From an uncultured Alphaproteobacteria bacterium (GTDB taxonomy: Bacteria; Pseudomonadota; Alphaproteobacteria; Rhodobacterales; Rhodobacteraceae), in contig CACHMT010000004.1 of assembly GCA_902581005.1 (NCBI GenBank), positions 39,742 to 103,741 of the forward strand: a stretch of 64,000 bases of DNA, written 5' to 3'. Numbering within the stretch: the stretch's first letter is position 1; each line of letters begins with the position of its first letter. Shown here piece by piece: positions 3,661 through 33,132 of the stretch. A program made the position numbers and the translations under genes. The notes below the pieces were generated by a model. It saw only the letters and a list, made by a program, of their open reading frames with translations, made no database searches and was not told the origin of the DNA.

Positions 3661-3678
3661 GCCAATCAAAAATAATAT

Positions 3679-3707
3679 GGAGGGAGGGGTTTTCCTCCCT
3701 CCTTTTT
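3679..3707 (+). terminator. Intra-operon hairpin with T-run between ugpB and ugpA
   Basis: A perfect 9-bp stem (GGAGGGAGG / CCTCCCTCC) with a 6-base loop is followed at once by five T. This has the form of a Rho-independent terminator and probably ends part of the ugpB transcripts, so that binding protein exceeds permease. The ugpA ATG at 3712 lies only 4 bases beyond the T-run, so the ugpA ribosome site would be sequestered in or near this structure. Confidence 0.7.
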
Positions 3708-3711
3708 GCTA

Positions 3712-5441: not shown

Positions 5442-6497
5442 ATGAGTTTTATAAACCTTAAGAACGTTGTAAAAGTATATCCAGATGGAACCCAGGCTAT
5501 TTTCAACTCTTCTTTATCGATTGAGAAGGGTGAATTAGTTGTCTTTGTTGGGCCCAGCGGTTGTGGAAAGTCAACATTACTTAGAATGATAGCTGGGTTA
5601 GAAGACGTAACGGATGGAGAAATAGACCTAGATGGAAACAGAATTAATGAAATAGACCCCTCTGAGAGGGATATAGCAATGGTTTTCCAGAATTATGCCT
5701 TATACCCCCATATGTCAGTCTATAATAATATTGCTTATGGCCTAAGAAGTAGAGGAATAAAAAAACTGGAAATAGAAGCACAGGTTACAAATGTTTCAGA
5801 ATTACTTCAAATTGGCGATCTATTGAGTAAAAAACCAGGTCAACTATCAGGAGGACAAAGACAACGCGTTGCCATGGGGAGAGCAATAGCTCGTGATCCA
5901 AAAGTATTTTTATTCGATGAACCACTTTCAAATTTAGACGCAAAACTACGGGTCCAGGTGCGACTGGAAATAAAAAAATTACAAAGAAAAATGGGAACGA
6001 CTAGTATTTTCGTTACTCATGATCAAACTGAAGCAATGACCCTGGGTGATCGATTAGTTGTTATGAATAAAGGAGTGATGGAGCAAGTGGGTACTCCAAT
6101 GGAAATTTATTATCACCCCAAAACTAAATTTGTAGCAGAATTTATCGGCACTCCTAGCATGAATTTCATCACAGGCAGTATAAAAGATAAGACCTTTAAA
6201 GCTTCGAGTTTCGCAATACCAGCTAAATATGAAGATAAAGATGATGTTATCCTAGGAGTGAGGCCTGAAGATATATCAATCACTAAAGCTACAACCGGTG
6301 TCAAATGTAAGGTGGAGCTTATTGAAAAACTTGGTTCGAGTACCGTCATATACTGTGTTGATATGAAGGAAAATCAACTTTGCGTAAGTACTCAATCACG
6401 TGCTAGCGTGGAGGTAGGAGACACCATACACATATCTACAAATAATAAAGCCTTGCATTTTTTTGATAGGGAAACTTCTAAAGCGTTAACTAAATAG
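5442..6497 (+). CDS. ugpC: sn-glycerol-3-phosphate ABC transporter ATP-binding protein UgpC
   Basis: The 351-residue MalK/UgpC-type ATPase has Walker [10 protein letters not shown] near residue 38, Q-loop FQNYALYPH, ABC signature LSGGQRQRVAMGRAI, Walker B VFLFDEPLSNLDAKLR and the H-loop VTHDQTEA. A C-terminal MalK-type regulatory domain (TOBE-like) includes LGVRPEDI. It powers the UgpAE channel in the cytoplasm. The start codon directly follows the ugpE stop. Context (after ugpBAE) decides UgpC over other MalK paralogues. Confidence 0.9.
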   Translation: MSFINLKNVVKVYPDGTQAIFNSSLSIEKGELVVFVGPSGCGKSTLLRMIAGLEDVTDGEIDLDGNRINEIDPSERDIAMVFQNYALYPHMSVYNNIAYGLRSRGIKKLEIEAQVTNVSELLQIGDLLSKKPGQLSGGQRQRVAMGRAIARDPKVFLFDEPLSNLDAKLRVQVRLEIKKLQRKMGTTSIFVTHDQTEAMTLGDRLVVMNKGVMEQVGTPMEIYYHPKTKFVAEFIGTPSMNFITGSIKDKTFKASSFAIPAKYEDKDDVILGVRPEDISITKATTGVKCKVELIEKLGSSTVIYCVDMKENQLCVSTQSRASVEVGDTIHISTNNKALHFFDRETSKALTK

Positions 6498-9118: not shown

Positions 9119-9964
9119 TTATTTCCCACTCTTAACAGATCCATCAAGTATCTTTAAGCGAGCATAACTGCTAATTTGTTCTACGAACAATATTAAAACA
9201 AACATTAAGCCTATTACTACAACAGCTCTATCGTAAGCCATCCAATTAAAAAGACTGTTTAATTCCATTCCGATTCCACCAGCACCAACTAGACCTAACA
9301 CCACTGATCCTCTTACAGACTTTTCTAAGGCGAAAAGCGATGTCGTTATAAAGCCAGGCATGGCGGCAGGAATGATTGCTGAAAAAGTACTGTCTAGCTT
9401 TGACGCTCCACTACTCTCTATACCTTCAGCTGCACTCCTTTCAACATCCTCCATCTCTTCAGCAAAAAATCTACCTACAAATCCTATTGTGTCTATTGCA
9501 ATCGTTAATGTGCCTGCAAAAGCTCCAAGCCCTACAACCATTACAAATATTATTGCCCATACTAAATCAGGTATTGTTCGCATAAATGTTATTAGAAACT
9601 TTGCAACTACTTGAAGCATTCTTGCCGGGATGCTATTTCCGAATAAGCCTCTTGAGGCCATCAGCGCAAATAAAAAACCTACAATTATTCCTAAAAACGT
9701 ACCAAAAATTGCCATTTGAGCCGTCTCAATTAAGAGCAAAATATACCTGTTAAAATCATTCCAGCTTAATCTATGCTCGCTAATAGGAGGAAAGGCTTCA
9801 CTGAGAAACCTACCAATGTACTCACTGCTTCCAAATAATTTGCTAAAGGAAAAACCGGAGCCATCAAGAGCCCACACCATAATCAAAAAGAAAACAATAA
9901 TGGACATATATTGAAAGGATGAGATTTGTTCAAATCTTTTTGGGGTTTTCATTTTTTGGTTCAT
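9119..9964 (-). CDS. phnE: Phosphonate-type ABC transporter permease PhnE (first system)
   Basis: This 281-residue inner-membrane permease has about six helices and the PhnE-type coupling segment EGIESSGASKLDSTFSAIIPAAMPGFI followed by RGSVVLGLVGAGGIG, both strongly conserved in PhnE/PtxC. It lies 5 bases behind phnC. The operon (phnD-phnC-phnE-methyltransferase) is separate from the C-P lyase cluster. Phosphonate, phosphite and some phosphate importers share this family, so the substrate is not decided by sequence. Confidence 0.88.
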   Translation of the reverse strand: MNQKMKTPKRFEQISSFQYMSIIVFFLIMVWALDGSGFSFSKLFGSSEYIGRFLSEAFPPISEHRLSWNDFNRYILLLIETAQMAIFGTFLGIIVGFLFALMASRGLFGNSIPARMLQVVAKFLITFMRTIPDLVWAIIFVMVVGLGAFAGTLTIAIDTIGFVGRFFAEEMEDVERSAAEGIESSGASKLDSTFSAIIPAAMPGFITTSLFALEKSVRGSVVLGLVGAGGIGMELNSLFNWMAYDRAVVVIGLMFVLILFVEQISSYARLKILDGSVKSGK

Positions 9965-9969
9965 ATCAA

Positions 9970-10737
9970 TTAAACGAATCTTACAGAGCTGTCGTATTGT
10001 GCAATTAATTTTTTTTGATCTATCATTTTACTTGCTTTGAAGAAACTTATTTCACCGTCTTTTAAAGCTAAAACTTTGTCAGAATATTTTACTGCATCTT
10101 CAACATTGTGGGAGGTAAATATGACTGTCATCTTTTCTTTTTTACATAGTTCTGTGAGAAGCTCCATAACTGTTTTTGCAGCTACTGGGTCAAGGCTAGC
10201 GACTGGCTCATCAGCAAGTAATAATTTGGGTTTTTGCATCAGAACTCTTGCTATTGCAACTCTTTGAGATTGCCCTCCTGAAAGGGTGTCAACTCGTTTC
10301 ATCGCAAGGTGAGATAAATTCACCTTCCGTAGGCAATCCATTGCCCTTGACCTAGAAGCTTGGGGTGCCAGAAAATGAAACCATCGTGTTACTCCCTTTA
10401 AACCGCTAGTGATATTTCCAAAATCTCCATGAATAACATTAGACAACACACTCAGTCGAGGAACTAGATTATGCCGTTGAAAAATAAACCCTACATCTCT
10501 TCGTATTTGTCGTAGCCGATGACTATTTAAATTTGTTATTTCCTTGTCAAAAACTTTGATACTTCCACTCGATGGCTCAATTAAGCGGCTGCAACATCTC
10601 AGCAAGGTAGATTTACCTGCTCCATTAGAACCAATTATCGCTAATAAACTTTGCGAATTAACGCTAAAAGAAAGACCTTTTAATACAGATTCGCTACCGA
10701 AGCTTTTTTTTAAATCTTTTATTTCTAAATCAATCAT
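9970..10737 (-). CDS. phnC: Phosphonate-type ABC transporter ATP-binding protein PhnC (first system)
   Basis: The 255-residue ATPase has Walker A GSNGAGKST, Q-loop FQRHNLVPRLSVLSNV (characteristic of PhnC), signature LSGGQSQRVAIARVLMQ, Walker B LLLADEPVASLDP and H-loop TSHNVED. It energises the PhnE channel. It lies between phnD and phnE; the 49-base gap after phnD contains an imperfect hairpin. Confidence 0.9.
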   Translation of the reverse strand: MIDLEIKDLKKSFGSESVLKGLSFSVNSQSLLAIIGSNGAGKSTLLRCCSRLIEPSSGSIKVFDKEITNLNSHRLRQIRRDVGFIFQRHNLVPRLSVLSNVIHGDFGNITSGLKGVTRWFHFLAPQASRSRAMDCLRKVNLSHLAMKRVDTLSGGQSQRVAIARVLMQKPKLLLADEPVASLDPVAAKTVMELLTELCKKEKMTVIFTSHNVEDAVKYSDKVLALKDGEISFFKASKMIDQKKLIAQYDSSVRFV

Positions 10738-10744
10738 ATATCAA

Positions 10745-10768
10745 GCGCCCTATACTAGCATAGAGCGC
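10745..10768 (-). other. Intergenic hairpin between phnD and phnC (first system)
   Basis: GCGCCCTAT pairs with ATAGAGCGC with one C-A mismatch and a 6-base loop. It has no T-run, so it is more likely an mRNA-protecting or processing hairpin at the 3' end of the binding-protein message than a terminator. Confidence 0.45.
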
Positions 10769-10786
10769 TCTCCATACATCTATGGA

Positions 10787-11665
10787 TTAGTCTTGAATAT
10801 CAAATTCGGGCAATCCAGCTGTCCTGTACATGGCTCTTACTACATCATAGTCCGAATCATTAACTTCCAGCAATCTTGTGCCAATATATTTATCATTGGC
10901 TGGCTTACCTTTATCATCAAGTCCAGCTAAAATTCCAGCAATCAGCGAATCTTCATTATCTTTCATTGCCTTGGTTACTTTATCTATTTCAGCCTGCGTT
11001 AAATGACCTCCACCCATCATCATATCGTAGGGCAGATCACCTGACCTAGCTAACACCTTGAACTGACCTTGATTTTCGGGCGTTCTATTATATTTGATCC
11101 AAGAGCTAATTCGGACACCAATTGCCGCTGTATCACCTCTCTCTAGCCCAGCATGTTGCAATGCCTTCTTTGTATGGATTACTTTGATGTCTTTCATTGG
11201 GTCTACTCCATGGTCCATCATCACTTGCATCGGACAAAAATGTCCAGATGTCGACCCAGGCTTAGCAAAAGAGACTGCTTTACCTTTTAAATCTTCCATC
11301 TTCATTATTCCTACTCCTGTCTTAACGACAATACCGCAGTAATAATCTGGTCTCGCAATCGCAATCATTGCTTGAGAGTTTGTAAGCTTGTTAATTGCCA
11401 CATACTCTGCAGGACCTGTTATTGCAAAATCTAATTTCTTTCCTCTCAATGCCTCTGCTGTTGCAGTTTGATTGCTTACGGCAAAAAATTCAAAAGTATC
11501 ACCAGTGGCTTTTTCTAAAGCGTCCTTGAATGGTCCCCACTCAGAGATAAGAGCATCCATTCCTTCAATATCAGTAACAGCCATTTTGTAATTTTTCGCT
11601 GAAACTACTGAGCCTATCCCTAGGGATAAGCAAATTAACAATATAGTTTTAATAACAAATTTCAT
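10787..11665 (-). CDS. phnD: Phosphonate/phosphite-type periplasmic binding protein PhnD (first system)
   Basis: The secreted protein of about 292 residues has a signal peptide (MKFVIKTILLICLSLGIGSVVSA). It has PhnD/PtxB-family landmarks: MAVTDIEGMDAL, the conserved SFAKPGSTSGHF substrate-pocket segment, and AAIGVRISSW. The track start at 11704 adds 13 residues before the signal peptide; the ATG at 11665 has AAGGAG seven bases upstream and is chosen. A tripartite Pho-box-like repeat lies 50 bases upstream. Its ligand (phosphonate, phosphite, methylphosphonate or another oxyanion) cannot be read from sequence. Confidence 0.88.
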   Translation of the reverse strand: MKFVIKTILLICLSLGIGSVVSAKNYKMAVTDIEGMDALISEWGPFKDALEKATGDTFEFFAVSNQTATAEALRGKKLDFAITGPAEYVAINKLTNSQAMIAIARPDYYCGIVVKTGVGIMKMEDLKGKAVSFAKPGSTSGHFCPMQVMMDHGVDPMKDIKVIHTKKALQHAGLERGDTAAIGVRISSWIKYNRTPENQGQFKVLARSGDLPYDMMMGGGHLTQAEIDKVTKAMKDNEDSLIAGILAGLDDKGKPANDKYIGTRLLEVNDSDYDVVRAMYRTAGLPEFDIQD

Positions 11666-11714
11666 AATTAACTCCTTGCTTTTCCCAATTATTAAAAAGT
11701 TCATTAACGCTTTT

Positions 11715-12224: not shown

Positions 12225-13085
12225 GTGGATAATCGGTTTGATGGCCTCAAGATCTATAGAAGTATCTGGATTTCAGATATACATCTTGGTACTCCTGGCG
12301 CCAGTACAGATCAACTTCTGCGTTTTTTAAAGTGTACGCGATCTGAAAATTTGTTTTTGGTCGGAGATATCATCGACGGTTGGCAATTGAAAAAGCGTTG
12401 GTATTGGCCACAAGCTCACAATGACATCGTGCAAAAACTCCTCAGAAAAGCTCGTCATGGTACGAATGTAGTGTTTATTCCAGGAAACCATGATGAGGCA
12501 GCGCGTCAATTTGTTAATGTGACCTTTGGTGAGATCAAAATATGCCTTGACTACATCCATGAAACTGCTGACGGTAAGAGACTGTGGATCGTGCATGGTG
12601 ATCTTTTTGACCATGTCATTCAACATGCGCGCTGGTTAGCGTATATTGGTGACAAAGCTTATCAGATTTTGCTTCGCGTGAATCGCTGGCTAAATATTTG
12701 GCGTGACGCATTCAAACTGCCTTATTGGTCGTTTTCTCAATACTTAAAACTTAAAGTCAAATTGGCAGTTTCATTCATTTCTGCATTTGAACATGCAATG
12801 GTAACAGAAACTCGAAGGCGCGGATGTAGCGGAATTATATGCGGGCATATACACAAACCAGAGTTAAAAATTACAGACGGAATCATATACGGAAATGACG
12901 GTGATTGGGTAGAATCTCGCTCTGCACTGGTAGAGCATTACGACGGTAAATTGGAATTACTAAATTGGGATAAAATTTCAAAAAATATTGCTTCAGTGGC
13001 TGATGTATCATCAGTGAAAGACGGGATTGATGGGGGGCCAACAGCAGCGCTTGGTGAACTACATAGCAAGAGTAACAGTCCGTGA
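12225..13085 (+). CDS. plcP: PlcP-type phospholipase C (metallophosphoesterase for lipid remodelling), copy 1
   Basis: The 286-residue calcineurin-like phosphoesterase has all metal-binding blocks: SDIHLG near residue 16, GDIIDGW, GNHDE, VHGDLFD and CGHIHKPE. It resembles LpxH-type UDP-diacylglucosamine pyrophosphatases. However, its position directly before a GT4 glycosyltransferase with a 4-base overlap is the signature of the PlcP-Agt module: PlcP cuts phospholipids to diacylglycerol under phosphate starvation and Agt adds a sugar. Start is GTG with AAGGCAGG upstream. About 60 percent or more of residues look identical to copy 2 at 48385 (by eye). Confidence 0.88.
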   Translation: MDNRFDGLKIYRSIWISDIHLGTPGASTDQLLRFLKCTRSENLFLVGDIIDGWQLKKRWYWPQAHNDIVQKLLRKARHGTNVVFIPGNHDEAARQFVNVTFGEIKICLDYIHETADGKRLWIVHGDLFDHVIQHARWLAYIGDKAYQILLRVNRWLNIWRDAFKLPYWSFSQYLKLKVKLAVSFISAFEHAMVTETRRRGCSGIICGHIHKPELKITDGIIYGNDGDWVESRSALVEHYDGKLELLNWDKISKNIASVADVSSVKDGIDGGPTAALGELHSKSNSP

Positions 13086-14194
13086 AAATTTTAATTATCA
13101 CAGATGCGTGGTACCCACAAGTCAATGGAGTTGTACAAACACTAACAAAAACACGCGATCATTTGGTCCAGATGGGGCATAAAGCTGAACTTATTACCCC
13201 TGAATCGTTTCGTACGATTCCTTGTCCAACTTATCCGGAAATTAGACTTTCAATTTTTCCAGGAAAAAAGATTGCTGAAAAAATTCAGGTGTCTCAACCA
13301 GACGCAATTCATATTGCAACTGAGGGGCCGCTTGGTCTGGCTGCCCGGCGTTACGCAACTTCACATAATTTAGATTTCACAACTGCATTCCACACCCGTT
13401 TTCCAGAGTATATACGTTCTAGGACTAAATTGCCGCTTGGAGCTACATACGCACTCTTGCGTTGGTTTCACAGTCCGGCTAAAAATGTGATGGCACCAAC
13501 CAACACTGTTATAAGAGACCTAGAAAAATGGCAAATCGGAAACCCTGTATTGTGGCCGCGAGGGGTTGATCTTACCATTTTTAATCCATGTAACAGAAAC
13601 GTTAAGAAACCCACTGGAAACATCGAAAAGCTAAACGCGAGTATCGCAAAACTGGATAACGCAACGAAACCTGTTTTTATTTATGTTGGGCGAGTAGCTG
13701 TTGAGAAAAATCTTAGTGGATTTTTAGATTTGGATCTACCAGGTGAAAAACATGTTGTTGGAGAAGGGCCCGCTCTTAAAACACTGAAGAAAAAATATCC
13801 CAAAGTTATTTTTCATGATGCGCATCCAACGGAGAACTTACCGGCATTCTACAATCGCGCGGATGTTTTTGTGTTTCCTAGTCGAACAGATACTTTTGGC
13901 CTTGTTCTGTTAGAAGCAATGGGTTGCGGTCTGCCTGTAGCAGCTTTTCCAGTCACGGGTCCAATAGATGTCGTAGGTGAATCTGGTGCAGGCATCTTGG
14001 ACAATGACTTAAAGAAAGGCTGTCTAGCTGCCCTAAAAATTGACCGAAAAATTGTTCGTATGCATGCGGAGAAATTCTCATGGAAGTCGGCAACGGATAT
14101 ATTTTTTAGCCATCTAACCAATGCTCACAAGATTGTAGACAGGTATCAGATATCTAAAAAGCCTTATAAGACCAATTATAGGTTTGGCCCCTGA
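13082..14194 (+). CDS. agt: Agt-type diacylglycerol glycosyltransferase (GT4), copy 1
   Basis: This 370-residue GT-B glycosyltransferase opens with ITDAWYPQVNGVVQTL and has EGPLGLAARR and the GT4 signature SRTDTFGLVLLEAMGCGLPVAAFPV, whose Glu residues contact the nucleotide sugar. Agt makes glycosyl-diacylglycerols (glucosyl or glucuronosyl) that replace phospholipids. Start is GTG and overlaps plcP1 by 4 bases, implying coupled translation. The 3' end overlaps the convergent acyltransferase by 41 bases. Sugar donor is not predictable here. Confidence 0.87.
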   Translation: MKILIITDAWYPQVNGVVQTLTKTRDHLVQMGHKAELITPESFRTIPCPTYPEIRLSIFPGKKIAEKIQVSQPDAIHIATEGPLGLAARRYATSHNLDFTTAFHTRFPEYIRSRTKLPLGATYALLRWFHSPAKNVMAPTNTVIRDLEKWQIGNPVLWPRGVDLTIFNPCNRNVKKPTGNIEKLNASIAKLDNATKPVFIYVGRVAVEKNLSGFLDLDLPGEKHVVGEGPALKTLKKKYPKVIFHDAHPTENLPAFYNRADVFVFPSRTDTFGLVLLEAMGCGLPVAAFPVTGPIDVVGESGAGILDNDLKKGCLAALKIDRKIVRMHAEKFSWKSATDIFFSHLTNAHKIVDRYQISKKPYKTNYRFGP

Positions 14195-17282: not shown

Positions 17283-18056
17283 TTAATTTACCTCTTCGTT
17301 ATGGATGGTATAGTTTTTACCATCCAGTAGGATAATGCCATATCCCGAATTTTCACCTTTGGCATATTCTACTCGATCAGCTTTGAACTTTAGGACCATT
17401 TGCTGATTTATGCTTTTGAACGTGGAGAAATTATATCCTTCGTAAAGACCACACATACTTCGATGTATGTGACCAGATATTAGATGGTTTACATTATTGA
17501 AATTTTTTATAGTTGAAAAAAAATCGTGGGAATTTTTTAGTCTTAGTAAGTCCATAGCCTGCATTCCCGTTGTAAAAGCGGGATGGTGCATAAACAAAAT
17601 TACTTTTTTATGATCCGCTTCTTTAAGTTTTTGACTCAACCAGTCGAGTCTTTTTTCACATAAGTAACCACAGCTTTTGGGTATGTCATTGTGAGGATCT
17701 TTAAGCGTATCTAAGAATATAAAATCAAGATTTTCATAAGCCTCACTACTCTGTAAGAATCCATTATGATCTGGTTGGTAGTATGGAAATACATCGAGGA
17801 AGTTCTTTCGGTTATCGTGATTTCCAAGCATAAATTTTATGGGTCTATTTATTACCGAGACCAAATTTCTTAAGGCACTATATTCTTCAATTTTACCACT
17901 ATCCGCTAAGTCGCCTGTAAAGACTAGCGTATCAAAATCATTATGATTGCCTTGCAAGTGCAGTATAGCTTTCTCAAGTTTTTGAGATGATTTTTTTAAA
18001 CTTGGTTCATCAGCAGAGTTTAAGTGAATATCTGAAAAGACTATGATTTTTTTCAT
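17283..18056 (-). CDS. GpdQ/CpdA-like metallophosphodiesterase next to the C-P lyase cluster
   Basis: The 257-residue calcineurin-like phosphoesterase has ordered metal motifs: FSDIHLN, FTGDLADSG, MLGNHDNR, FMHHPAF and ISGHIHRS. This set matches the class III cyclic nucleotide / glycerophosphodiesterase group (CpdA, GpdQ). It lies downstream of phnM1 on the same strand, 277 bases away. The window has neither PhnP (which opens the ribose 1,2-cyclic phosphate made by C-P lyase) nor UgpQ/GDPD, so this enzyme could supply one of those steps; that is inference. No Pho box was seen directly upstream. Confidence 0.75.
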   Translation of the reverse strand: MKKIIVFSDIHLNSADEPSLKKSSQKLEKAILHLQGNHNDFDTLVFTGDLADSGKIEEYSALRNLVSVINRPIKFMLGNHDNRKNFLDVFPYYQPDHNGFLQSSEAYENLDFIFLDTLKDPHNDIPKSCGYLCEKRLDWLSQKLKEADHKKVILFMHHPAFTTGMQAMDLLRLKNSHDFFSTIKNFNNVNHLISGHIHRSMCGLYEGYNFSTFKSINQQMVLKFKADRVEYAKGENSGYGIILLDGKNYTIHNEEVN

Positions 18057-18333
18057 TTTTAGCTCTCGAAAAATTTATTGGTCTAAACGTCCGCCCCACC
18101 CACGACGTGACTCTATAGCTCTTCTAAAGTTGCATTTTACAAAAGATAGATCCATTGGTCTACGATTTAGTCTGCAGCTTAAATTTATTGTCTAGGCCCT
18201 TTTGAAGAAGTTGGAAAATTGAATTAATGATATCTACTGTCAAATGAAACCCGGTAGTAATATAATTCGAATATGTGACCAGATATGATACTGAAAATAA
18301 CCTATGGTATATCGCAGATACTAAAATCCCTTT

Positions 18334-19500
18334 TCACTGGCGTTCATGAAAGATATGTGGGCTTTGAGTAGAATTAGGAGTCCACACCCTTTGAATTATA
18401 GGAAAATTATTTTTTACATCAAAAAGAAGTAAATCAGCTCGCATACCAATCTTAATCAAACCACGATCATTTAGATTAGCTGCTTTTGCTGGTGTCTCAG
18501 TAACCGCCTTTATTCCCTTTGCAAAATCTCCCAAAATATCTCCAAGTTTTACCGCTCCCATTAGCAGTGAAGAAGGCATATAATCCGATGAAAGAATGTT
18601 ACAGCAACCCATGGAAACAAGGTCCTTAGCCGCGACGTTTCCGGAGTGGGACTCCCCTCTCAGAATGTTTGGTCCTCCCATGATAATATTAATTGATGAT
18701 CGATTTAATACCTTTGAAGCTTCAACAGTTGTTGGAAACTCGGCGATTTTACATCCATTTTCAATTGATGTAATTGCATCATTCTCTGTCGTGTCGTCAT
18801 GACTTGCGAGAATAGCGCCAAGTCTTTTATTCGCACTTAAAGTTGCGGCATGGTTTCTATCTCCCCAAGCCTTTTTTATTTTATAAAGACGTTCAAAATG
18901 ATCTTCCAAATCTTTTGGACTCATAGAGTATTTTCCCTTTAAATACTCTGCCATTTTATCTAAGTCTCTAAATTGCTTTTGGCCCGGAGTATGATCCATT
19001 AAACTAACTATTCCAACTCGGTCTTCTGGGGTAAACTCTTCCAATTCGATTTCCAAAGTTTCAGAACAAACTTCTGCTCTAAGATGCGTAAAATGACTTA
19101 TTTTCAGGCTTTTCTCTGCTCTGAGCTCCTTAATGGTGTCCGTAACTTGCCTAGCATATTTAAGATAGTTACCCCTTTTATCTGACACTATCGAACCAAC
19201 TCGCAATGCGTCAAAAACAGTCGTAATACCAGCACTTTCTAGTTCTCTATCATGTGATAAAATCGCAGCCTTTATTGGCCATTTAACATTTGCTCTTGGT
19301 TGCATATGTCTTTCCAAATTGTCTGTGTGTAGTTCAATCAGGCCTGGTGATAAATAATTTTCATTACAATCGAAAGAACCACGTATAAATCCTTTTCCAG
19401 AGTTAACCTCTTTAATGACCCCATCCGCTACCCTGATGCTTCCGTTTACTACTTCGTTCTCCAGAACGAGACGTGCATTGCTTAAAATAAATTCATGCAT
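18334..19500 (-). CDS. phnM: RPnTP hydrolase PhnM (C-P lyase pathway), copy 1
   Basis: The 388-residue amidohydrolase-fold enzyme removes pyrophosphate from alpha-D-ribose 1-methylphosphonate 5-triphosphate to give the substrate of PhnJ. Visible are GLIELHTDNLERHMQPR (metal-binding HxD and the PhnM signature), LMDHTPGQKQF, LASHDDTT, EFPTT, NILRGESHSGN and LSSDYMP with the metal-ligand Asp. Length is normal. A minus-strand Pho box lies about 66 bases upstream, inside the first codons of the divergent DUF1045 gene. It is closer to canonical E. coli PhnM than the copy at 27619. Confidence 0.92.
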   Translation of the reverse strand: MHEFILSNARLVLENEVVNGSIRVADGVIKEVNSGKGFIRGSFDCNENYLSPGLIELHTDNLERHMQPRANVKWPIKAAILSHDRELESAGITTVFDALRVGSIVSDKRGNYLKYARQVTDTIKELRAEKSLKISHFTHLRAEVCSETLEIELEEFTPEDRVGIVSLMDHTPGQKQFRDLDKMAEYLKGKYSMSPKDLEDHFERLYKIKKAWGDRNHAATLSANKRLGAILASHDDTTENDAITSIENGCKIAEFPTTVEASKVLNRSSINIIMGGPNILRGESHSGNVAAKDLVSMGCCNILSSDYMPSSLLMGAVKLGDILGDFAKGIKAVTETPAKAANLNDRGLIKIGMRADLLLFDVKNNFPIIQRVWTPNSTQSPHIFHERQ

Positions 19501-19565: not shown

Positions 19566-19583
19566 AGGACATTTTTATGACAA
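19566..19583 (-). promoter_or_regulatory. Pho box for phnM1, overlapping the DUF1045 start codon
   Basis: On the minus strand, TTGTCAT-N4-ATGTCCT: one perfect unit and one near match at 11-base spacing. The plus-strand ATG of the DUF1045 gene (19577) lies inside the box. Confidence 0.6.
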
Positions 19584-20269
19584 ATTATTCCAGATACGCA
19601 ATTTATTTTTCTCCCTATCCAGATACATTTCTCGATAAAGTTGGGTCTCAATGGTTAGGCTGGAATCCAAAGAAAGGTAAGATTACCAATCACAAGAAAA
19701 TAAAAAACCCAAAATTTGTTGACTTAAAGTCTATCACGGAAAAAGCAAGGATATATGGCTTGCATGGCACGCTCAAAGCACCATTTGTCCTAAAAGATAA
19801 GTATTCATACAATGATCTCATTAGCGATGTGGAATTAATTTCAAAGCGACATAGTAGGTTTATAATCCAAAATCCAGTCTTGAAAAAGCTTGGCCGATTT
19901 TATGCTTTAGTCCCTGAAAGAAGCCCTAAGGCACTAAAATCTTTAGCAGATGATTGCGTTTTAACTCTAGATAAGTTTAGAGAACCTCCCACATCCACAG
20001 AACTAGAAAAAAGAAGAGCTAGTGGACTTGACTTTGAAGAGGAGGAAAACTTAAAGAAGTGGGGTTATCCATATGTCTTTAATAGATATAAATTTCACAT
20101 TACATTAACCGGAGAAATAAGGTTGGGTGAAGAGAAAAATATTCGAGACACAATAGAATTAAATTTTCAAGAAGTTATCGGATATCCCTTACCTTTTTTA
20201 GATATCTGTCTTTTTGGGCAAAGGGATGATAGGTATTTTTGTGAACTGAAAAGATTTTCGCTGCTTTAA
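19577..20269 (+). CDS. DUF1045 protein of phosphonate operons (2H phosphoesterase fold)
   Basis: The 230-residue protein has two HxT-type motifs of the 2H phosphoesterase superfamily: LHGTLKAPF near residue 59 and FHITLTGEI near residue 177. This is the DUF1045 / Phn_opern_protn family, found almost only with C-P lyase genes and likely acting on a cyclic phosphate or ribose phosphate intermediate; its reaction is not established. The start has TTAGGA eight bases upstream. It diverges from phnM1 and its stop shares the palindrome TTAA with the phnN stop. Confidence 0.88.
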   Translation: MTNYSRYAIYFSPYPDTFLDKVGSQWLGWNPKKGKITNHKKIKNPKFVDLKSITEKARIYGLHGTLKAPFVLKDKYSYNDLISDVELISKRHSRFIIQNPVLKKLGRFYALVPERSPKALKSLADDCVLTLDKFREPPTSTELEKRRASGLDFEEEENLKKWGYPYVFNRYKFHITLTGEIRLGEEKNIRDTIELNFQEVIGYPLPFLDICLFGQRDDRYFCELKRFSLL

Positions 20270-20790
20270 TGCATTACAGATAATAATTGAATAACTGCTT
20301 TATCTAGATCATCCTCATTGTTGATAATAATTGAGCCCGTTGGAATATCAAATTTCGCCCTTTTTAACCTTAGTTGAATATCCTTTGCATTTTCTCTAGC
20401 TCTTTTTTTCAATCTTTCCAGAACGATTTCTTCTTTAGCATCAATGTAAATTATTTTCAACTCTGGAAATTGCTGCTTATATTCCTTAATAGCATGTCTA
20501 GATCCATTGAAAATTACGTTTGTTCCCTTATTAAGGTGATATATAATATCAATAGGTATCCCATAAAAGTTATTATGCGCATACCAATGAATAGCTACTC
20601 TTTTTTCTTTTAATAAAATATCTATTTGAGACTGATCCACTTTAATAAAGTCTTCGTTGTCGACCTCAGCACTTCTAGAAATATATCTTTTAGGAAAATA
20701 TGCATCGACTTTATTCTTAGCAGCATTAAGAATTGAATCTTTCCCCACTCCAGAAGGGCCTACCACTGTAAATAATGTTCCTTTACGCAT
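20266..20790 (-). CDS. phnN: Ribose 1,5-bisphosphate phosphokinase PhnN
   Basis: The 174-residue guanylate-kinase-like protein has the P-loop GPSGVGKDSIL near residue 11. It makes PRPP from ribose 1,5-bisphosphate, the end product of the C-P lyase pathway. SRSAEVDNEDF and IHWYAHNNFYGIP are conserved in PhnN, the latter replacing the GMP-binding region of guanylate kinase. It lies 12 bases behind phnL as the last gene of the phnGHIJKLN operon. Confidence 0.92.
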   Translation of the reverse strand: MRKGTLFTVVGPSGVGKDSILNAAKNKVDAYFPKRYISRSAEVDNEDFIKVDQSQIDILLKEKRVAIHWYAHNNFYGIPIDIIYHLNKGTNVIFNGSRHAIKEYKQQFPELKIIYIDAKEEIVLERLKKRARENAKDIQLRLKRAKFDIPTGSIIINNEDDLDKAVIQLLSVMH

Positions 20791-20802
20791 AATAGATTTC
20801 TC

Positions 20803-21477
20803 TCAGCTTGCTGAAAAGTTGCTTACATCTATTTCTCGATCACACACTTTATCTCTTACTTCTTTGTCATGAAAGATACCAAGTATCGCCGACCCTTTTT
20901 CTTTTTTTTCTGAAATCATATCCATAACAATTCTTTTGTTTTCACGATCGAGGCTTGCCGTCGGCTCATCCAAAAGAAGCAACTTGTAGTCTTTAGAAAA
21001 GCCAATAGCAATATTTACCCTTTGTTGTTCCCCTCCTGAAAAAGTCAGTGGCGAGAGGTGCCATAACTTAGAGCTTAAATTTAGCCTAGACAATAATGTC
21101 TCAGCGATATCCTTCGCTCTGGCGCGACTTTCAAATTGATCAAGAAGAGGTTCCATAACCAAATCTATGGTGCTTACTCTCGGTAAAACTCTTAAAAATT
21201 GACTTACATACCCCATTTTTTGTTTTCTTAATATCGACATTTCAATGGCTTTTAAATCAAGGATATTTTCCTTATCTATATAAATCTTTCCAACTGCACA
21301 TACATAATTACCGTAAATCATTCTCATTAAAGTTGATTTGCCACAACCAGAGTTACCTATCAATGCAACACATTCCCCCGAATTAACATTAAAGCAAGCA
21401 TCTCTAATAACTGAAAATTTCCCTTTGTCTAAGTTCTTTAGATTGAAGGATTTTGCAACATTTTTTACTTCCAACAT
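20803..21477 (-). CDS. phnL: C-P lyase system ABC-type protein PhnL
   Basis: The 224-residue ATPase has Walker A GNSGCGKSTLM, signature FSGGEQQRVNIAIGF, Walker B LLLLDEPTASLD, and the PhnL-typical Q-loop region YVSQFLRVLPRVSTIDLVMEPL. In the C-P lyase complex PhnL binds on the PhnK face and the ATPase pair drives conformational change rather than transport. It lies 2 bases behind phnK. Confidence 0.93.
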   Translation of the reverse strand: MLEVKNVAKSFNLKNLDKGKFSVIRDACFNVNSGECVALIGNSGCGKSTLMRMIYGNYVCAVGKIYIDKENILDLKAIEMSILRKQKMGYVSQFLRVLPRVSTIDLVMEPLLDQFESRARAKDIAETLLSRLNLSSKLWHLSPLTFSGGEQQRVNIAIGFSKDYKLLLLDEPTASLDRENKRIVMDMISEKKEKGSAILGIFHDKEVRDKVCDREIDVSNFSAS

Positions 21478-21479
21478 TT

Positions 21480-22250
21480 TTACACCTTTAGTATTGAGGA
21501 GACAAGTAATTGCGTGTAGGAATGCTGTGGATCATCCAAAACTTGGTCGGTTAATCCAGTTTCAACTATTTTACCATTTTTCATAACAATCAATCTATTT
21601 GCCATGAACCTCGCAACTGCAAGATCATGCGTTACGATTATTACTGACAATCCTAATTCTCTAACCAAAGATCTTATGAGATCAAGTAATCTTGCTTGGA
21701 CAGATACATCAAGCCCACCTGTAGGTTCATCCATAAATATTAGCCTAGGTTTCGTTATAAGATTTTTAGCAATCTGAAGTCTTTGTTGCATTCCACCAGA
21801 AAAAATACTCGGTTTGTCATCCAGTCTGATTGCATCTATTTCAACCTTTTCGATCCATTCGGTGGCTTCAGCCCTAATTTGGGAGTAATTTCTATAACCT
21901 ATTGCCATTAGTCTTTCGCCAATGTTCCCTCCAGCACTCACTGCCATTCTAAGACCATCTCGAGGGTTTTGGTGGACAAAGGCCCACTCGGTTCTCAGTA
22001 GGTTTCTTTTTCTGGGTTCCGGCAAAGACAGTAGATCCAACCAATTATTATCTCTATCCAAATATGTTATATTACCACCATCTGGTACCAAGCTTCCAGA
22101 CAAGCAATTTAGAAGAGTTGATTTGCCAGAGCCAGACTCTCCAACAATTCCAACGACCTCACCAGTATAAAGCTCTATACTTAAGTTGTCGCAAGCATAT
22201 ACACTGCCAAATTTCTTATCTATAGCCTTAGCTTTTAAAATCTGTTCCAT
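21480..22250 (-). CDS. phnK: C-P lyase system ABC-type protein PhnK
   Basis: The 256-residue ATPase resembles oligopeptide-transport ATPases, with Walker A GESGSGKSTLL, Q-loop FVHQNPRDGLRMAVSAGGNIGERLM (diagnostic of PhnK), signature FSGGMQQRLQIAKNL, and Walker B LIFMDEPTGGLDVSVQ. It docks on PhnJ in the core complex. It follows phnJ with 3 bases between. Confidence 0.94.
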   Translation of the reverse strand: MEQILKAKAIDKKFGSVYACDNLSIELYTGEVVGIVGESGSGKSTLLNCLSGSLVPDGGNITYLDRDNNWLDLLSLPEPRKRNLLRTEWAFVHQNPRDGLRMAVSAGGNIGERLMAIGYRNYSQIRAEATEWIEKVEIDAIRLDDKPSIFSGGMQQRLQIAKNLITKPRLIFMDEPTGGLDVSVQARLLDLIRSLVRELGLSVIIVTHDLAVARFMANRLIVMKNGKIVETGLTDQVLDDPQHSYTQLLVSSILKV

Positions 22251-22253
22251 TGT

Positions 22254-23090
22254 TTAACTTTTTCTACTATTGCAGTAATCACTATCTGAACATGAAAACA
22301 TTCTAGTTCCCTTATCATCAATAACTACTTCATCGAGATATGTATTGGTGGCACCACATATTTCACAAGTCTTCTCGGCTCTTGAGGCTTCAAATGGATA
22401 ATCTTCAAAATCAAGACTTATAACCTTAGTATATGGAGGAACTGCGTAAATCCTTTGTTCTCTCCCAGCTCCAAAAAGCTGAATTGCCGGGCAAAAATTC
22501 ATTTTTGGGTTATCAAATTTTGGTGTAGGTGATGGATCCATTATATAACGATCGTTTACTTTTACTGGATAAGCGTATGCTGTCGAAATCTCCCCGTTAA
22601 TAGATATGTCTTCATATAATTTAACATGCATCAAGCCATATTCCTCTAATGCGTGCATAACCCTTGTTTCGGTCTCTCTAGGCTCTAAAAATCTTAAGGG
22701 CTCTGGGATTGGAACTTGATAAACAAGTATTTGATCTTCTGATAAAACTTGTTCGGGAATGCGGTGTCTGGTTTGAATTACAGATGCTTTTCCAGTGTTT
22801 TCAGTAGTTTTTACACCAGCTACTCTTTCAAAAAATTTTCTTATAGAGACTGCGTTGGTTGTGTCATCTGAACCCTGATCTATGACCTTCAATACATCTG
22901 TTTCTTGCAAGCATGCTGCTGTGACCTGAACGCCGCCAGTACCCCAACCATAAGGCATTGGCATTTCCCTACTTGCAAAGGGCACCTGATATCCTGGAAT
23001 GCATATCGCTTTTATTAGAGCCCTTCTTATCATTCTCTTGGTTTGCTCATCAAGGTATGCAAAATTGAAATCCTCTTCTGAGTTACTCAT
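22254..23090 (-). CDS. phnJ: C-P lyase catalytic subunit PhnJ (radical SAM)
   Basis: The protein of about 278 residues splits the C-P bond of ribose 1-phosphonate 5-phosphate to the 1,2-cyclic phosphate plus alkane. The four cysteines for the 4Fe-4S cluster are in the exact CX2CX21CX5C spacing at the C-terminus (CEIC ... CSDSDYC). The radical glycine region MPYGWGTGGVQVTA and IDQGSDDTTNAVSIR match E. coli PhnJ. The track begins at a TTG (23105); the ATG at 23090 has GAGG nine bases upstream and overlaps phnI by 8 bases, so I prefer it. Confidence 0.95.
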   Translation of the reverse strand: MSNSEEDFNFAYLDEQTKRMIRRALIKAICIPGYQVPFASREMPMPYGWGTGGVQVTAACLQETDVLKVIDQGSDDTTNAVSIRKFFERVAGVKTTENTGKASVIQTRHRIPEQVLSEDQILVYQVPIPEPLRFLEPRETETRVMHALEEYGLMHVKLYEDISINGEISTAYAYPVKVNDRYIMDPSPTPKFDNPKMNFCPAIQLFGAGREQRIYAVPPYTKVISLDFEDYPFEASRAEKTCEICGATNTYLDEVVIDDKGTRMFSCSDSDYCNSRKS

Positions 23091-24168
23091 CTTTTTTTGC
23101 CTCAAAAGCTGTCTTTCTTATCTTTCTAATTAGCTCTAGTTCTGCCTGAAAATCGACGTAATGAGGAAGTTTGATATGCTCTACAAAACCAGTCGCTTGA
23201 ATATTATCTCCATGATATAGAACAAACTCTTCATCTTGAGCAGGGGCACCATCGCTAACCTCTCCCAATTCTTTCCAACGTAAAGCGCGATCAACTAAAG
23301 CCATCGATATCGCTTTTCTCTCCGATTGACCAAAAACAAAACCATAGCCTCTAGTGAATTTAGGGGGATGGATCTTCGAGCCCAGAAATTGATTAACCGT
23401 CTCGCATTCTGAGATCTCTATCTCAGCTATCTCTATATTAAACCCTAGCTCTGGGATTTCAAATTCGACAGATATAAGTCCTATTCTTAGCTCACCAACG
23501 AATGGATGATTTCTTCCGAACCCCCTTTGGGTTGAGTATGCCATACCTAATAAAAACCCTTCATCGCTTCGAGTAAGAGCCTGTAGCCGCAATGCTCTAT
23601 TAGCCGGAATTTCCAAAGGCTGTCGAGTGAGATCAGGCGAGTCCGCTTCACTAGATGATGTCTCTTCTGTCTCAATAATTCCTTCATTATTTAGGAACTG
23701 AGTGACGTGTTGGAACATTTGTTCAGTGTCTTTTCCAGGCTCAAATTCATCGATGCTGCCATCAGCTAATAGTTTGAAATCTAAAAGTCGATGAGTGTAA
23801 TCAAAAGTCGGTCCAAGAAGCTGGCCTCCTGGAATGTCCTTAAACGTCGCTGATATTCTTCTTTTAGCAATCATTTTGTCCGTATTTATAGGCTTCCCAA
23901 CTCCAAATCTTGGTAAGGTTGTTCGGTATGCTCTTATTAAAAAAATCGCTTCGATTAAATCTCCTCTAGCTTGCTTTATTGCTAAAGACGCAAGCTCAGG
24001 ATCAAATAGCGAACCTTCAGCCATCACTTTTGCTATTGATAAAGATAATTGAGTCTTTATTTGATCGACACTCAGATCTGTGACTTTTCTGTCTCCTCGA
24101 CGCTCATCCTCCAGCCACCGATGTGCATTATCAATCGCTCTTTCGCCTCCTTTTACCGCTACATACAT
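23083..24168 (-). CDS. phnI: C-P lyase core subunit PhnI (nucleosidase)
   Basis: The 361-residue subunit joins alkylphosphonate to the ribose of ATP or GTP with release of the base, acting with PhnG, PhnH and PhnL. The N-terminal YVAVKGGERAIDNAH and the middle TDKMIAKRRISATFKDIPGGQLLGPTFDY are strongly conserved in PhnI. The end YVDFQAELELIRKIR matches too. It lies one base behind phnH. Confidence 0.95.
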   Translation of the reverse strand: MYVAVKGGERAIDNAHRWLEDERRGDRKVTDLSVDQIKTQLSLSIAKVMAEGSLFDPELASLAIKQARGDLIEAIFLIRAYRTTLPRFGVGKPINTDKMIAKRRISATFKDIPGGQLLGPTFDYTHRLLDFKLLADGSIDEFEPGKDTEQMFQHVTQFLNNEGIIETEETSSSEADSPDLTRQPLEIPANRALRLQALTRSDEGFLLGMAYSTQRGFGRNHPFVGELRIGLISVEFEIPELGFNIEIAEIEISECETVNQFLGSKIHPPKFTRGYGFVFGQSERKAISMALVDRALRWKELGEVSDGAPAQDEEFVLYHGDNIQATGFVEHIKLPHYVDFQAELELIRKIRKTAFEAKKDE

Positions 24169-24169
24169 A

Positions 24170-24733
24170 TTATGTCTCTACAATTGTTGTTCTAGGCAGT
24201 CCCATAACCAAATTTTCTTTTGTCAAAAAAATATCAATTCCTAAAGGAAAACTAATAGCACTTTCTCTTTCAATAATCTTTTCCGGGAGCTCTACATGAA
24301 GCGTCTCTTTAATCCCTGGTCCATTTATAGAAAAACTTTTTACATCATTGCTTGTGTTTTCAATCACAATATTGGCCGACCTGTCAGGATACTCGTCCGT
24401 ACCAATAGGAAATTCGTGAAAAGGTAGTAGTTCCTGTATATGCCCCACTGCGAAATCAACATTTTTATCGCCAGAAATTTTTGCACCGGTATAAAAATTT
24501 ATCCAATCCTCGACATTTTTATTGCGAAAGGTCTCTCCCAAAAAAATCTTAGTATTAAAATCACAAAAAACTAATATAAGCGTTGCACCAGCGATAGATA
24601 GAGGTGTGGGAAGCCCATCAATAACCTGAAAATTCTGAATTTTTCCTGGCATTGCCATCGCTTTCAAAGCCATCCTAAAAGCTCTAGCAGCATCCTTGGA
24701 CTGGTCTTGGAAGAAGGGAAGCGGATTTGTCAT
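24170..24733 (-). CDS. phnH: C-P lyase core subunit PhnH
   Basis: The 187-residue PLP-transferase-like fold subunit has no own known catalysis and is needed for PhnGHI assembly. Family features are the N-terminal AFRMALKAMAMPGKI, FHEFPIGTDEYPDRSANIVIE, and INGPGIKE. Its start overlaps phnG by 4 bases. Confidence 0.92.
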   Translation of the reverse strand: MTNPLPFFQDQSKDAARAFRMALKAMAMPGKIQNFQVIDGLPTPLSIAGATLILVFCDFNTKIFLGETFRNKNVEDWINFYTGAKISGDKNVDFAVGHIQELLPFHEFPIGTDEYPDRSANIVIENTSNDVKSFSINGPGIKETLHVELPEKIIERESAISFPLGIDIFLTKENLVMGLPRTTIVET

Positions 24734-25176
24734 TTTTCGTCTTCTCCACGCACAAGAGTAAAAAAGTCCACCTTTGTTTTTTCTGCTTTTCTTTTAATTA
24801 AGTCATGTCTTTTTTTCTCTATTTCTTTTAGTTTTATTACAATTTTACTTTCAATTAAGGTCCTCTTATCGCTTTGCATTAAAGCGTCACACAGCGCAGC
24901 AACGGTCGACTTCTTTTTACTTCTACCTTGCACATATCCATGACCAACTATCTTACCGTCTTCTAATTGAATAGAGCATCGCGTAACGGAAATTTCGCCT
25001 GCATTAAATTTTTGCCCAGTATTTCCAATCCTCGCTGTCGCCATAATTGTGCCTATTTCCGGTTTTCTCAGATAAGTATAGCTCGGATCTAACCCAGTAG
25101 ACTCATACAACCCAACGAGATCGGATTCGGATGATTTTGCTAAATAGCTTAACCATTTAGATCTGCCTAGCAACAT
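24730..25176 (-). CDS. phnG: C-P lyase core subunit PhnG
   Basis: The 148-residue first gene of the operon has the PhnG features RKPEIGTIMATARIGNTGQKFNAGEISVTRCSIQL and HGYVQGRSKKKSTVAALCDAL. It pairs with PhnI in the core. A near-perfect Pho box lies 69 bases upstream, so phnGHIJKLN is a PhoB-driven unit. The PhnF-type repressor seen in many bacteria is absent from the window. Confidence 0.93.
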   Translation of the reverse strand: MLLGRSKWLSYLAKSSESDLVGLYESTGLDPSYTYLRKPEIGTIMATARIGNTGQKFNAGEISVTRCSIQLEDGKIVGHGYVQGRSKKKSTVAALCDALMQSDKRTLIESKIVIKLKEIEKKRHDLIKRKAEKTKVDFFTLVRGEDEK

Positions 25177-25244: not shown

Positions 25245-25262
25245 ATGACAAGAGCATGACAG
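25245..25262 (-). promoter_or_regulatory. Pho box of the phnGHIJKLN operon
   Basis: On the minus strand, CTGTCAT-N4-TTGTCAT: both units match the PhoB consensus, making this the cleanest box in the window. It lies 69 bases before the phnG ATG. Confidence 0.75.
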
Positions 25263-27596: not shown

Positions 27597-27618
27597 AATT
27601 TAAATGTACACCGACACT

Positions 27619-28776
27619 ATGTTTTCAGATTTTTCTTTCTCTAGCTCTAACGTTTTAATTGATGGCAAGCTTCAAAAGGGAAGCTTAACCATTGAACAAG
27701 GTAAAATTCAATTAGATAGGGAGAGTAGCCCATACAGGCATTATAAAATGGGGAATTTCTACATTCTTCCCGGAATAATAGATCTTCATGGGGATGGCTT
27801 CGAACGCCACTTATTCCCAAGACCTTCCGCTCCGGTAAAACATACAATAGCCCTCAAAAATTTAAGTAACGAATTAATATATAATGGAATTACCACTGCC
27901 TATTTAGCCCAATGCTATTCTTGGGAAGGTGGATACAGAAGTCCTGAGTTTACTACTGAATTGCTAACGTCTTTAAAAATACTAAAAAATGACTTTATGC
28001 CCGATCTACGGCTTCAAATAAGATTTGAAACACACCTGATTGACGAGAAAAAATATCTTATTGATCTTATAGATCAATTTAATATTGATTACTTAGTCTT
28101 TAATAACCATTTGCCTGAGGCAATTAAAAAGTGGGAAAACGATAAACCGAGGATCGAGGCTTGGGCTGGTCAAACAGGTAGAACTGGCGAGCAACATATG
28201 AACATTGTAAAGGGTTACTTGAAGAATAATGTGAGAGTTAAGGGGTTTCTTGACGAACTCTCAGGAGAACTGAAAAGAAGAAACATTACCCTTGGATCAC
28301 ATGATGACGATAGCCCTTCAGACAGAGAGTATTATAATTCACTCGGGGCTTACATCTGCGAATTTCCAACAACTTTGCAAGCGGCTGAGGCAGCAAAGAA
28401 AAATAACAACGGTGTCATAATGGGAGCACCAAATATCATGAGAGGAGGATCACAAGCTGGAAACATAGATGCAATAAATTTAGTTAAAAGTGATCTAGTT
28501 GACTGCTTGGTTTCTGATTACTACTACCCAGCGCTCTTAGAGTCGGTATGGAAGATGGCTGATATGAAGGTTAGGTCATTTGAGAACTCGTATAAGATGA
28601 TCTCGACTAATCCAGCTAGGCTTTTAAATTTAGCTGATAGAGGAGAGTTAGTAGATAATGCCCGAGCTGACTTACTGATATTAAACCCCGATAATAGAAA
28701 AATTGTCGCTGTCTTCTGTAGGGGAATTCCTTTTTTTGTGTCTGATGAGCTCGTGGGTAGTTTAAGCGCTGCTTAA
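27619..28776 (+). CDS. phnM: PhnM-like amidohydrolase, divergent second copy
   Basis: The protein of about 385 residues has the PhnM order of motifs with changes: LPGIIDLHGDGFERHLFPR (HGDG instead of HTDN), LGSHDDDSPSD, EFPTT, APNIMRGGSQAGN and LVSDYYYP. It lacks the LMDHTPGQ segment of copy 1 (WAGQTGRTGEQH stands in its place). It should be a metal-dependent hydrolase of a related triphosphoribosyl substrate. ATG 27604 is upstream of the start predicted from the Pho box, so ATG 27619 is preferred; neither has a ribosome site, so the mRNA may be leaderless. Its stop shares TTAA with the convergent transferase. Confidence 0.82.
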   Translation: MFSDFSFSSSNVLIDGKLQKGSLTIEQGKIQLDRESSPYRHYKMGNFYILPGIIDLHGDGFERHLFPRPSAPVKHTIALKNLSNELIYNGITTAYLAQCYSWEGGYRSPEFTTELLTSLKILKNDFMPDLRLQIRFETHLIDEKKYLIDLIDQFNIDYLVFNNHLPEAIKKWENDKPRIEAWAGQTGRTGEQHMNIVKGYLKNNVRVKGFLDELSGELKRRNITLGSHDDDSPSDREYYNSLGAYICEFPTTLQAAEAAKKNNNGVIMGAPNIMRGGSQAGNIDAINLVKSDLVDCLVSDYYYPALLESVWKMADMKVRSFENSYKMISTNPARLLNLADRGELVDNARADLLILNPDNRKIVAVFCRGIPFFVSDELVGSLSAA

Positions 28777-29390
28777 GAAAACTTCTCTATGAAGCTCTCT
28801 ACTGAAAGTTCTCTAAAATCCTTTAACCGTTGACCTATCGTATCATGATCCCAATCCCACCAAGACATTTCCATAAGTTGATCAACAACTTTATCGTTAA
28901 ATCGCATTCTTATAAGCCTTGCAGGATTCCCTGCCACTATTGAATATGGTTTAATATTTTTTGTAACAACACTTCCTGCTCCAATAATTGAGCCATGTCC
29001 AATAATTACTTCTGGTTTAATAATTGAGCCATGGCCTAACCAGGTATCATGGCCAACATTAGCCATTCTTGATTCTCGGGCAGCAAAAAATTCGTGATCC
29101 TCTTTCTGGTCCTTCCAGTAATCATTAGAGCGGTAAAGAAAATGGTGCAAAGATGCTTTATCCATAGGATGGTCTGTTGGACCGATCCTAACGAAGCTTG
29201 CTATATTAGAGAATTTCCCAATCTCAACATTCGCAAAATCACAATATCTTGCACAGTAAGAGTAATCACCGACAAACGCATTTATAAGATGCGTACCCAT
29301 TCCAATCTCTACAAAGCGTCCAAAGTTGCTATTCTTTATGCTGCACTCTTGATGTATAAGCGGTTTTTCGATTAAGAGATTTTTGGTCAT
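28773..29390 (-). CDS. Phosphonate-cluster hexapeptide-repeat transferase
   Basis: The protein of about 205 residues is a left-handed beta helix transferase (DapH/LacA-type). Visible are VEIGMGTHLINAFVGDYSYCARYC, VGHDTWLGHGSIIKPEVIIGHGSIIGAGSVVTKN, and PYSIVAGNPARLIRMRF. It matches the Phn acetyltransferase-like family associated with phosphonate genes, whose substrate is unproven. The track start (GTG 29468) would overlap the gene before it by 56 bases and adds residues foreign to the family; ATG 29390 is chosen. It is the last gene of the phnC2 operon. Confidence 0.82.
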   Translation of the reverse strand: MTKNLLIEKPLIHQECSIKNSNFGRFVEIGMGTHLINAFVGDYSYCARYCDFANVEIGKFSNIASFVRIGPTDHPMDKASLHHFLYRSNDYWKDQKEDHEFFAARESRMANVGHDTWLGHGSIIKPEVIIGHGSIIGAGSVVTKNIKPYSIVAGNPARLIRMRFNDKVVDQLMEMSWWDWDHDTIGQRLKDFRELSVESFIEKFS

Positions 29391-29412
29391 GCTTTGGTCT
29401 TGAAAGTCTAAT

Positions 29413-29835
29413 TCACCAAAACTTCCACCAAGGTTTTTGTTCTTCCTTATTAATTTTTTTATCCTCACTGTTTTTTTGAACTTCAGTCACCGCATTATCT
29501 CCTACCTGACCAAATTTATCCGTAACTCCTTGTCGAGCAATTTCATAAGCATTTTTTGCCATTTCAACAGCTTTTTCAACTTGTCCTTCACCACAAACTT
29601 TGTATGCACTTTCTAACATTCCCATTGCGTCTTTCCCAGCGGACTCAGTAGCTCTACTGATTTCAAGTCTAATTTTTGCTCTAAGAACTAAAATCTCTGT
29701 ATTATCACATTGGTCAATTATCTTTTGAAACGTTTCCTCTGTATTTCTACTGGCCTCATTGCCAGCCTTCTGTTCCTGACCGAAACCGAGAGTGACACTA
29801 CAAAATAACACAAAAAATGTCAGTAAAACCTTCAT
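29413..29835 (-). CDS. Secreted small helical protein of unknown function in the phnCDEE operon
   Basis: The 140-residue protein has a signal peptide (MKVLLTFFVLFCSVTLGFG|Q), two cysteines (QCDNTEI and KVCGEG), alternating helices, and a charged tail ending KPWWKFW. It should be periplasmic. No family is recognised. It lies 12 bases behind phnE2 in the same operon, so it should be co-expressed with the phosphonate transporter under PhoB control. It may be an accessory of the importer, but no evidence beyond position exists. Confidence 0.65.
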   Translation of the reverse strand: MKVLLTFFVLFCSVTLGFGQEQKAGNEASRNTEETFQKIIDQCDNTEILVLRAKIRLEISRATESAGKDAMGMLESAYKVCGEGQVEKAVEMAKNAYEIARQGVTDKFGQVGDNAVTEVQKNSEDKKINKEEQKPWWKFW

Positions 29836-32081: not shown

Positions 32082-32106
32082 AAAATAATTCTTTTTTTAA
32101 AGGAGT

Positions 32107-32133
32107 AATGTGCCCCTTTTTTTGGGGCACATT
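32107..32133 (-). other. Perfect hairpin between phnD2 and phnE1
   Basis: AATGTGCCCC and GGGGCACATT form a 10-bp stem with a loop of seven A on the minus strand. No T-run follows, so it is probably a 3' end protector or partial attenuator of the binding-protein message. Confidence 0.6.
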
Positions 32134-32156
32134 ATAAAACCATTACTATGAAGTAC

Positions 32157-33110: not shown

Positions 33111-33132
33111 CGTGAACTCCTCATTTTAAATA

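Follow-up and report, generated by a model that had tools for sequence, protein, structure and literature searches.

An SpdA/GpdQ-type phosphodiesterase gene beside a Rhodobacteraceae C-P lyase cluster and its possible link to phosphorus importers

Introduction

Among the described class III (calcineurin-like) phosphodiesterases, those closest to the enzyme treated here are SpdA from Sinorhizobium meliloti (SMc02179), the glycerophosphodiesterase GpdQ from Enterobacter aerogenes and the 3',5'-cAMP phosphodiesterases CpdA and Rv0805. SpdA hydrolyses 2',3'-cAMP and cGMP slowly, with a Km of 3.7 mM, and acts little or not at all on 3',5'-cyclic nucleotides; a null mutant of it shows hardly any phenotype (PMC4222275). 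Two phosphoesterases of other families bear on the C-P lyase pathway. These are PhnP of E. coli, a member of the metallo-beta-lactamase family, and DUF1045, alias RcsF (TIGR03223, PF06299), which belongs to the 2H superfamily and has been proposed as a substitute for PhnP (PMC10574752, PMC8235418, PMC3840354). An E. coli strain lacking phnHIJKLMNOP grows on methylphosphonate with a Rhodobacteraceae fosmid that carries DUF1045 and no phnP (PMC3840354), a complementation achieved by the clone as a whole. Finally, marine organic matter is known to supply phosphorus in the form of esterified phosphonates, whose cleavage has been ascribed to a postulated enzyme, either alkaline-phosphatase-like or a phosphonate monoester hydrolase (PMC5649143).

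The window analysed here is a stretch of 64,000 nucleotides from contig CACHMT010000004.1 of an uncultured Rhodobacteraceae bacterium, and its phosphorus-related features are collected in Table 1. The phosphodiesterase gene is referred to as MPE17.

Table 1. Phosphorus-related features of the window.
Feature	Position	Strand	Basis or remark
ugpBAEC-like importer operon	2353-6497	+	UgpB by search; A, E and C by position and matches
PhnD/PhnC/PhnE-type importer gene set	9119-11704	-	
Metallophosphoesterase and glycosyltransferase pair	12225-14194	+	overlapping genes
MPE17, SpdA/GpdQ-type class III phosphodiesterase	17283-18056	-	intact ORF, 257 aa
Stretch over the MPE17 start resembling importer-type genomes	18041-18097	-	sequence match to genus mates
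phnM1, alpha-D-ribose 1-methylphosphonate 5-triphosphate diphosphatase	18334-19500	-	over the NF011984 and TIGR02318 cut-offs
DUF1045/RcsF, 2H-type phosphoesterase, likely PhnP replacement	19577-20269	+	between phnM1 and phnN; HGT at 63, HIT at 174
phnN, ribose 1,5-bisphosphokinase	20266-20790	-	153.2 bits, cut-off 156
C-P lyase core phnL, phnK, phnJ, phnI, phnH, phnG	20803-25176	-	PhnG, PhnH and PhnJ by search; the other three by position and matches
Pho box	25245-25262	-	near-perfect, 1 mismatch, just upstream of phnG
phnM2 (second phnM-like gene) and hexapeptide transferase	27604-29468		
PhnD/PhnC/PhnE-type importer gene set	29848-33993	-	PhnE at 29848-31230
Metallophosphoesterase and glycosyltransferase pair	47385-49173	-	overlapping genes

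The phosphodiesterase gene and its product

The original prediction placed a class III phosphodiesterase after phnM1 and on the same strand, and this description holds: the reading frame is intact, lies 277 bp downstream of phnM1 and encodes the full motif set. In a Pfam profile search only Metallophos models matched MPE17 (E=9.5e-18) and the GDPD domain of UgpQ and GlpQ (PF03009) was absent; the PhnP model TIGR03307 gave no match to it at E<=0.001. All seven class III metal ligands are present (D9xH11, GD49, GN79HD, H157H and GH196xH198), and the corresponding columns are invariant across 36 relatives. The AlphaFold model (pLDDT 95) predicts a two-metal alpha/beta fold. dN/dS values of 0.18-0.26 inside the window's group, and of 0.15-0.19 against the orthologs of the other group, indicate that the protein is still under constraint. 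Judged by its sequence, MPE17 is a genuine gene, and its intact product belongs to a known kind of enzyme that is predicted to cut small phosphate diesters.

With regard to the known enzymes, the label "GpdQ-like" proved well chosen. A fold search with the predicted model returned GpdQ first (TM 0.89, rmsd 2.3 A) and Rv0805 second, and a family profile run on solved relatives ranked them likewise (153 versus 133 bits). GpdQ has identical metal ligands, but its identity to MPE17 is about 21% and it sits on a long branch outside both of the clades described below. CpdA and Rv0805 share the class III fold and motifs with MPE17, although the CpdA model NF008359 gives 86 bits, far under its cut-off of 225. 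The best NCBIfam model is that of SpdA (NF050112), whose score of 235 bits falls below the cut-off of 400 and does not make MPE17 an SpdA equivalog. SpdA nevertheless resembles it in length and in its identical motifs, at 37% identity over 257 aa. PhnP acts on phosphodiesters, as is predicted for MPE17, but comes from an unrelated family.

No clear Pho box was found at MPE17. Pho-box-like sites number 12 in the window, compared with 4.6 expected, and the best match is the one upstream of phnG. A promoter scan performed at chance level (14 found versus 13.3 expected) and yielded no clear promoter for MPE17.

The C-P lyase cluster and the PhnP step

The absence of phnP, from which a stand-in role for the phosphodiesterase had been proposed, extends beyond the cluster, given that the window's genome, 72.7% complete, contains no TIGR03307 match at E<=0.001. 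The functional gap that this absence seemed to imply is, however, probably filled by the DUF1045 gene within the cluster. Its product matches PF06299 with 155.8 bits (cut-off 24.3) and carries two H-x-T motifs; TIGR03223 gives 214.9 bits, under the cut-off of 248.95, and the AlphaFold model, built from four near-identical sequences only, has a pLDDT of 35. A comparison set of 121 related genomes, among them that of the window, contains 42 with PhnJ, and every one of these also carries DUF1045, which is found in 13 others (Fisher p 2e-21). PhnP over its cut-off occurs in 0 of the 42 and in 0 of the 121 overall. Within the genus, DUF1045 tracks PhnJ exactly (12 of 12 genomes with PhnJ, 0 of 10 without it), whereas MPE17 does not. 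The two proteins are phosphoesterases of one cluster, but of unrelated superfamilies.

From these comparisons, DUF1045 likely performs here the step carried out by PhnP in E. coli. For C-P lyase bacteria devoid of phnP, the literature asks what enzyme is responsible for opening the cyclic phosphate, and the present analysis strengthens the candidacy of DUF1045. A phn cluster accompanied by a phosphodiesterase of MPE17's kind was also sought in a DUF1045-free genome; the two Rhizobiales genomes that combine a Ugp importer, the phosphodiesterase, phnF and phn genes carry DUF1045 elsewhere. The second phnM-like gene and the hexapeptide transferase near the cluster are found likewise in the published fosmid B3_TF_MPn_2.

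Phylogeny and neighbourhoods of the relatives

MPE17 falls inside a clade of 27 rows together with S. meliloti SpdA (support 99/96), recognised by its position beside cyaD1, and this clade has a sister clade supported at 98/87. The tree contains 79 representative rows picked by similarity to MPE17, and its counts are not class-wide frequencies. According to their gene neighbourhoods, 20 of the 79 rows adjoin importers of the Ugp/CUT1 type and 12 of the 79 importers of the Pot/PhnT type, and every one of these rows belongs to the sister clade. In Sinorhizobium garamanticum, Roseibium, Delftia and Cupriavidus the phosphodiesterase gene stands at the end of a run encoding an ATPase, two permeases and a binding protein, and on S. 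meliloti pRRI128_3 the importer run also ends in the phosphodiesterase, an alanine racemase gene being interposed. Other members, SpdA and the relatives from roseobacters among them, are without such an importer operon; the neighbours of SpdA are cyaD1 and a Crp/Fnr regulator gene, while MPE17 lies next to phnM1 and its orthologs in genus mates next to an importer.

Some relatives are associated with phosphonate genes. In the Rhizobiales genomes AFS069108 and AFS079129 the Ugp importer, the phosphodiesterase, phnF and phnG-M lie together, and in genome G083 the relative's gene adjoins phnF and phnG. Mesorhizobium japonicum pMLa and Mesorhizobium AR02 hold, in a single run, the phn core, a peptide-type importer with its SBP, the phosphodiesterase, DUF1045 and phnN. 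The pMLa phosphodiesterase is a distant, long-branch member of the family, and since it stands side by side with DUF1045, the two are not alternatives there. A Variovorax relative adjoins phnY, whose pathway yields no cyclic ribose phosphate. Outside the genus, no class-wide link was found between the PhnD-like binding protein described below and genes of MPE17's kind; the two occur within about 7 kb of each other in G083 alone.

In Ancylobacter (L130:7180-7989, plus strand) an inositol-monophosphatase-like gene directly precedes the phosphodiesterase and follows a Pot-type importer, which gives a hint that the substrate may be a phosphodiester of inositol or of a sugar.

History of the locus in the genus

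MPE17 is present in 18 genomes of the genus. Twelve of them carry PhnJ, and in all 12 MPE17 adjoins phnM1, one being cut at a contig end. The remaining six are without PhnJ, an absence softened, like the others in the genus, by genome completeness of 58-91%. In five of these six the MPE17 ortholog is the last gene of an operon encoding a PhnD-type binding protein (tD), a PhnC-type ATPase (tC) and two PhnE-type permeases (tE1 and tE2), although in one of the five the contig ends before the binding protein is reached. In the sixth, G002, the MPE17 gene and the linker are retained and the importer is missing. Among the orthologs from genomes without PhnJ, five are 81-83% identical to MPE17, and that of G008, the deepest branch in the tree, 50%; for those that close the importer operon the values are 82-83% or 50%.

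Across 48-59 bp, the stretch over the start of MPE17 is 85-92% identical to the tE2 stop codon, linker and phosphodiesterase start of the importer-type genomes; upstream of it this similarity ends. By parsimony, the simplest reading is an older importer arrangement with phnM1 as a later neighbour; the phnM1 neighbourhood thus looks secondary.

In G016, a genus mate, a CUT1-type importer operon includes a HAD phosphatase together with a second SpdA-like phosphodiesterase, 34% identical to MPE17 (L047:3521-9256); the genome of the window, which is incomplete, yielded none.

Proposed role and rival readings

Taken together, we propose with moderate confidence that MPE17 is an importer-linked phosphodiesterase hydrolysing imported small phosphodiesters or phosphonate monoesters, a substrate range that we infer from its relatives and neighbourhoods. 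MPE17, a member of the SpdA clade whose predicted fold is GpdQ-like, would be a two-metal cytoplasmic enzyme. An ABC importer would bring small phosphodiesters, or the chemically similar phosphonate monoesters, into the cell, and their hydrolysis by MPE17 would make the released monoester or phosphonate usable. The ancestral gene of the genus probably closed a PhnD-C-E-E importer operon; the lineage of the window would now have the C-P lyase cluster at the importer's former place, with DUF1045 taking the step of PhnP. Several observations count against this reading: SpdA, the sole assayed member of the clade, cleaved 2',3'-cNMPs (the substrates tried being cyclic nucleotides and bis-pNPP) and is encoded beside an adenylate cyclase instead of an importer; other clade members, those of roseobacters, have no adjoining importer; and within the window no importer adjoins MPE17. 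Furthermore, because the Ugp- and Pot-linked relatives form the sister clade, the importer link in the genus may have arisen separately.

A first rival, which we regard as somewhat unlikely, is that MPE17 is a second SpdA, clearing RNA breakdown products as a 2',3'-cyclic-nucleotide phosphodiesterase and having no special tie to phosphorus scavenging. The common clade, the best NCBIfam model, the preference of SpdA for 2',3'-cAMP and cGMP over 3',5'-cAMP and the solitary position of most clade members agree with it. Yet the score of MPE17 lies well under the SpdA cut-off, its gene closes an importer operon in the genus, and the slow turnover, high Km and nearly silent null mutant of SpdA suggest that 2',3'-cNMPs may not be the natural substrate even of SpdA itself. 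A second possibility, contained in the original prediction, is that MPE17 replaces UgpQ and acts on glycerophosphodiesters imported by the window's Ugp system. The prediction was correct in that no GDPD gene adjoins the ugp operon, and both the GpdQ fold and the relatives encoded last in Ugp-type operons, where UgpQ would stand, make diester hydrolysis after uptake plausible. The need for a stand-in is nevertheless removed by two GDPD-family genes (PF03009) in other parts of the genome, of which one shares the contig of the window. By sequence these would be GDPD-family enzymes of unstated specificity (the UgpQ-type model gives one of them 71 bits, its cut-off being 264, and has no match to the other at E<=1e-12). 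Moreover, MPE17 lies more than 10 kb from ugpBAEC on the opposite strand, and the Ugp-linked relatives belong to the sister clade, all of which renders this role improbable.

The other half of the original prediction, that MPE17 replaces PhnP and opens the ribose 1,2-cyclic phosphate produced by C-P lyase, fares worse. Its constant position beside phnM1 in the PhnJ-bearing genomes of the genus would fit, as would the activity of a clade member on a five-membered cyclic phosphate and a weak co-occurrence of such phosphodiesterases with PhnJ outside the genus (p 0.025). Against this stand the published candidate DUF1045, which accompanies PhnJ in every case and is carried by the phnP-less clone that complements E. 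coli; the persistence of MPE17 in six genus mates without PhnJ; the Mesorhizobium type of phn operon, which holds both enzymes; and the relative in the phnY pathway. The co-occurrence data and the operons with both enzymes led us to reject this candidate, to which we assign a very low probability.

Returning to the importer-linked reading, a broader version of it can be formulated, tentatively and with considerable doubt. SpdA/GpdQ-type phosphodiesterases of Alpha- and Betaproteobacteria, MPE17 among them, might in general be importer-linked hydrolases whose action, following uptake, unmasks esterified phosphorus, phosphonate monoesters included, and lets C-P lyase bacteria use marine esterified phosphonates, 2',3'-cyclic nucleotides being a mere side activity. 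GpdQ-type enzymes can cut phosphonate esters, owing to the promiscuity of GpdQ. A search of the literature for cleavage of phosphonate esters by GpdQ, and for relatives linked to importers, found nothing direct. How phosphonates are released from the esters of marine dissolved organic matter is a question raised in the literature, for which the importer-linked family provides a testable candidate.

Other phosphorus-related genes in the window

Besides the Ugp importer, the window contains two importer gene sets of the PhnD/PhnC/PhnE type. In one of them the PhnE protein is unusually long, at 460 aa, and the PhnE model matches its second half only. The two overlapping metallophosphoesterase and glycosyltransferase pairs resemble the PlcP/Agt lipid-remodelling pair; compared with each other, their phosphoesterases are 63% and their glycosyltransferases 50% identical, and the pair on the minus strand adjoins pst/phoU/phoB genes.
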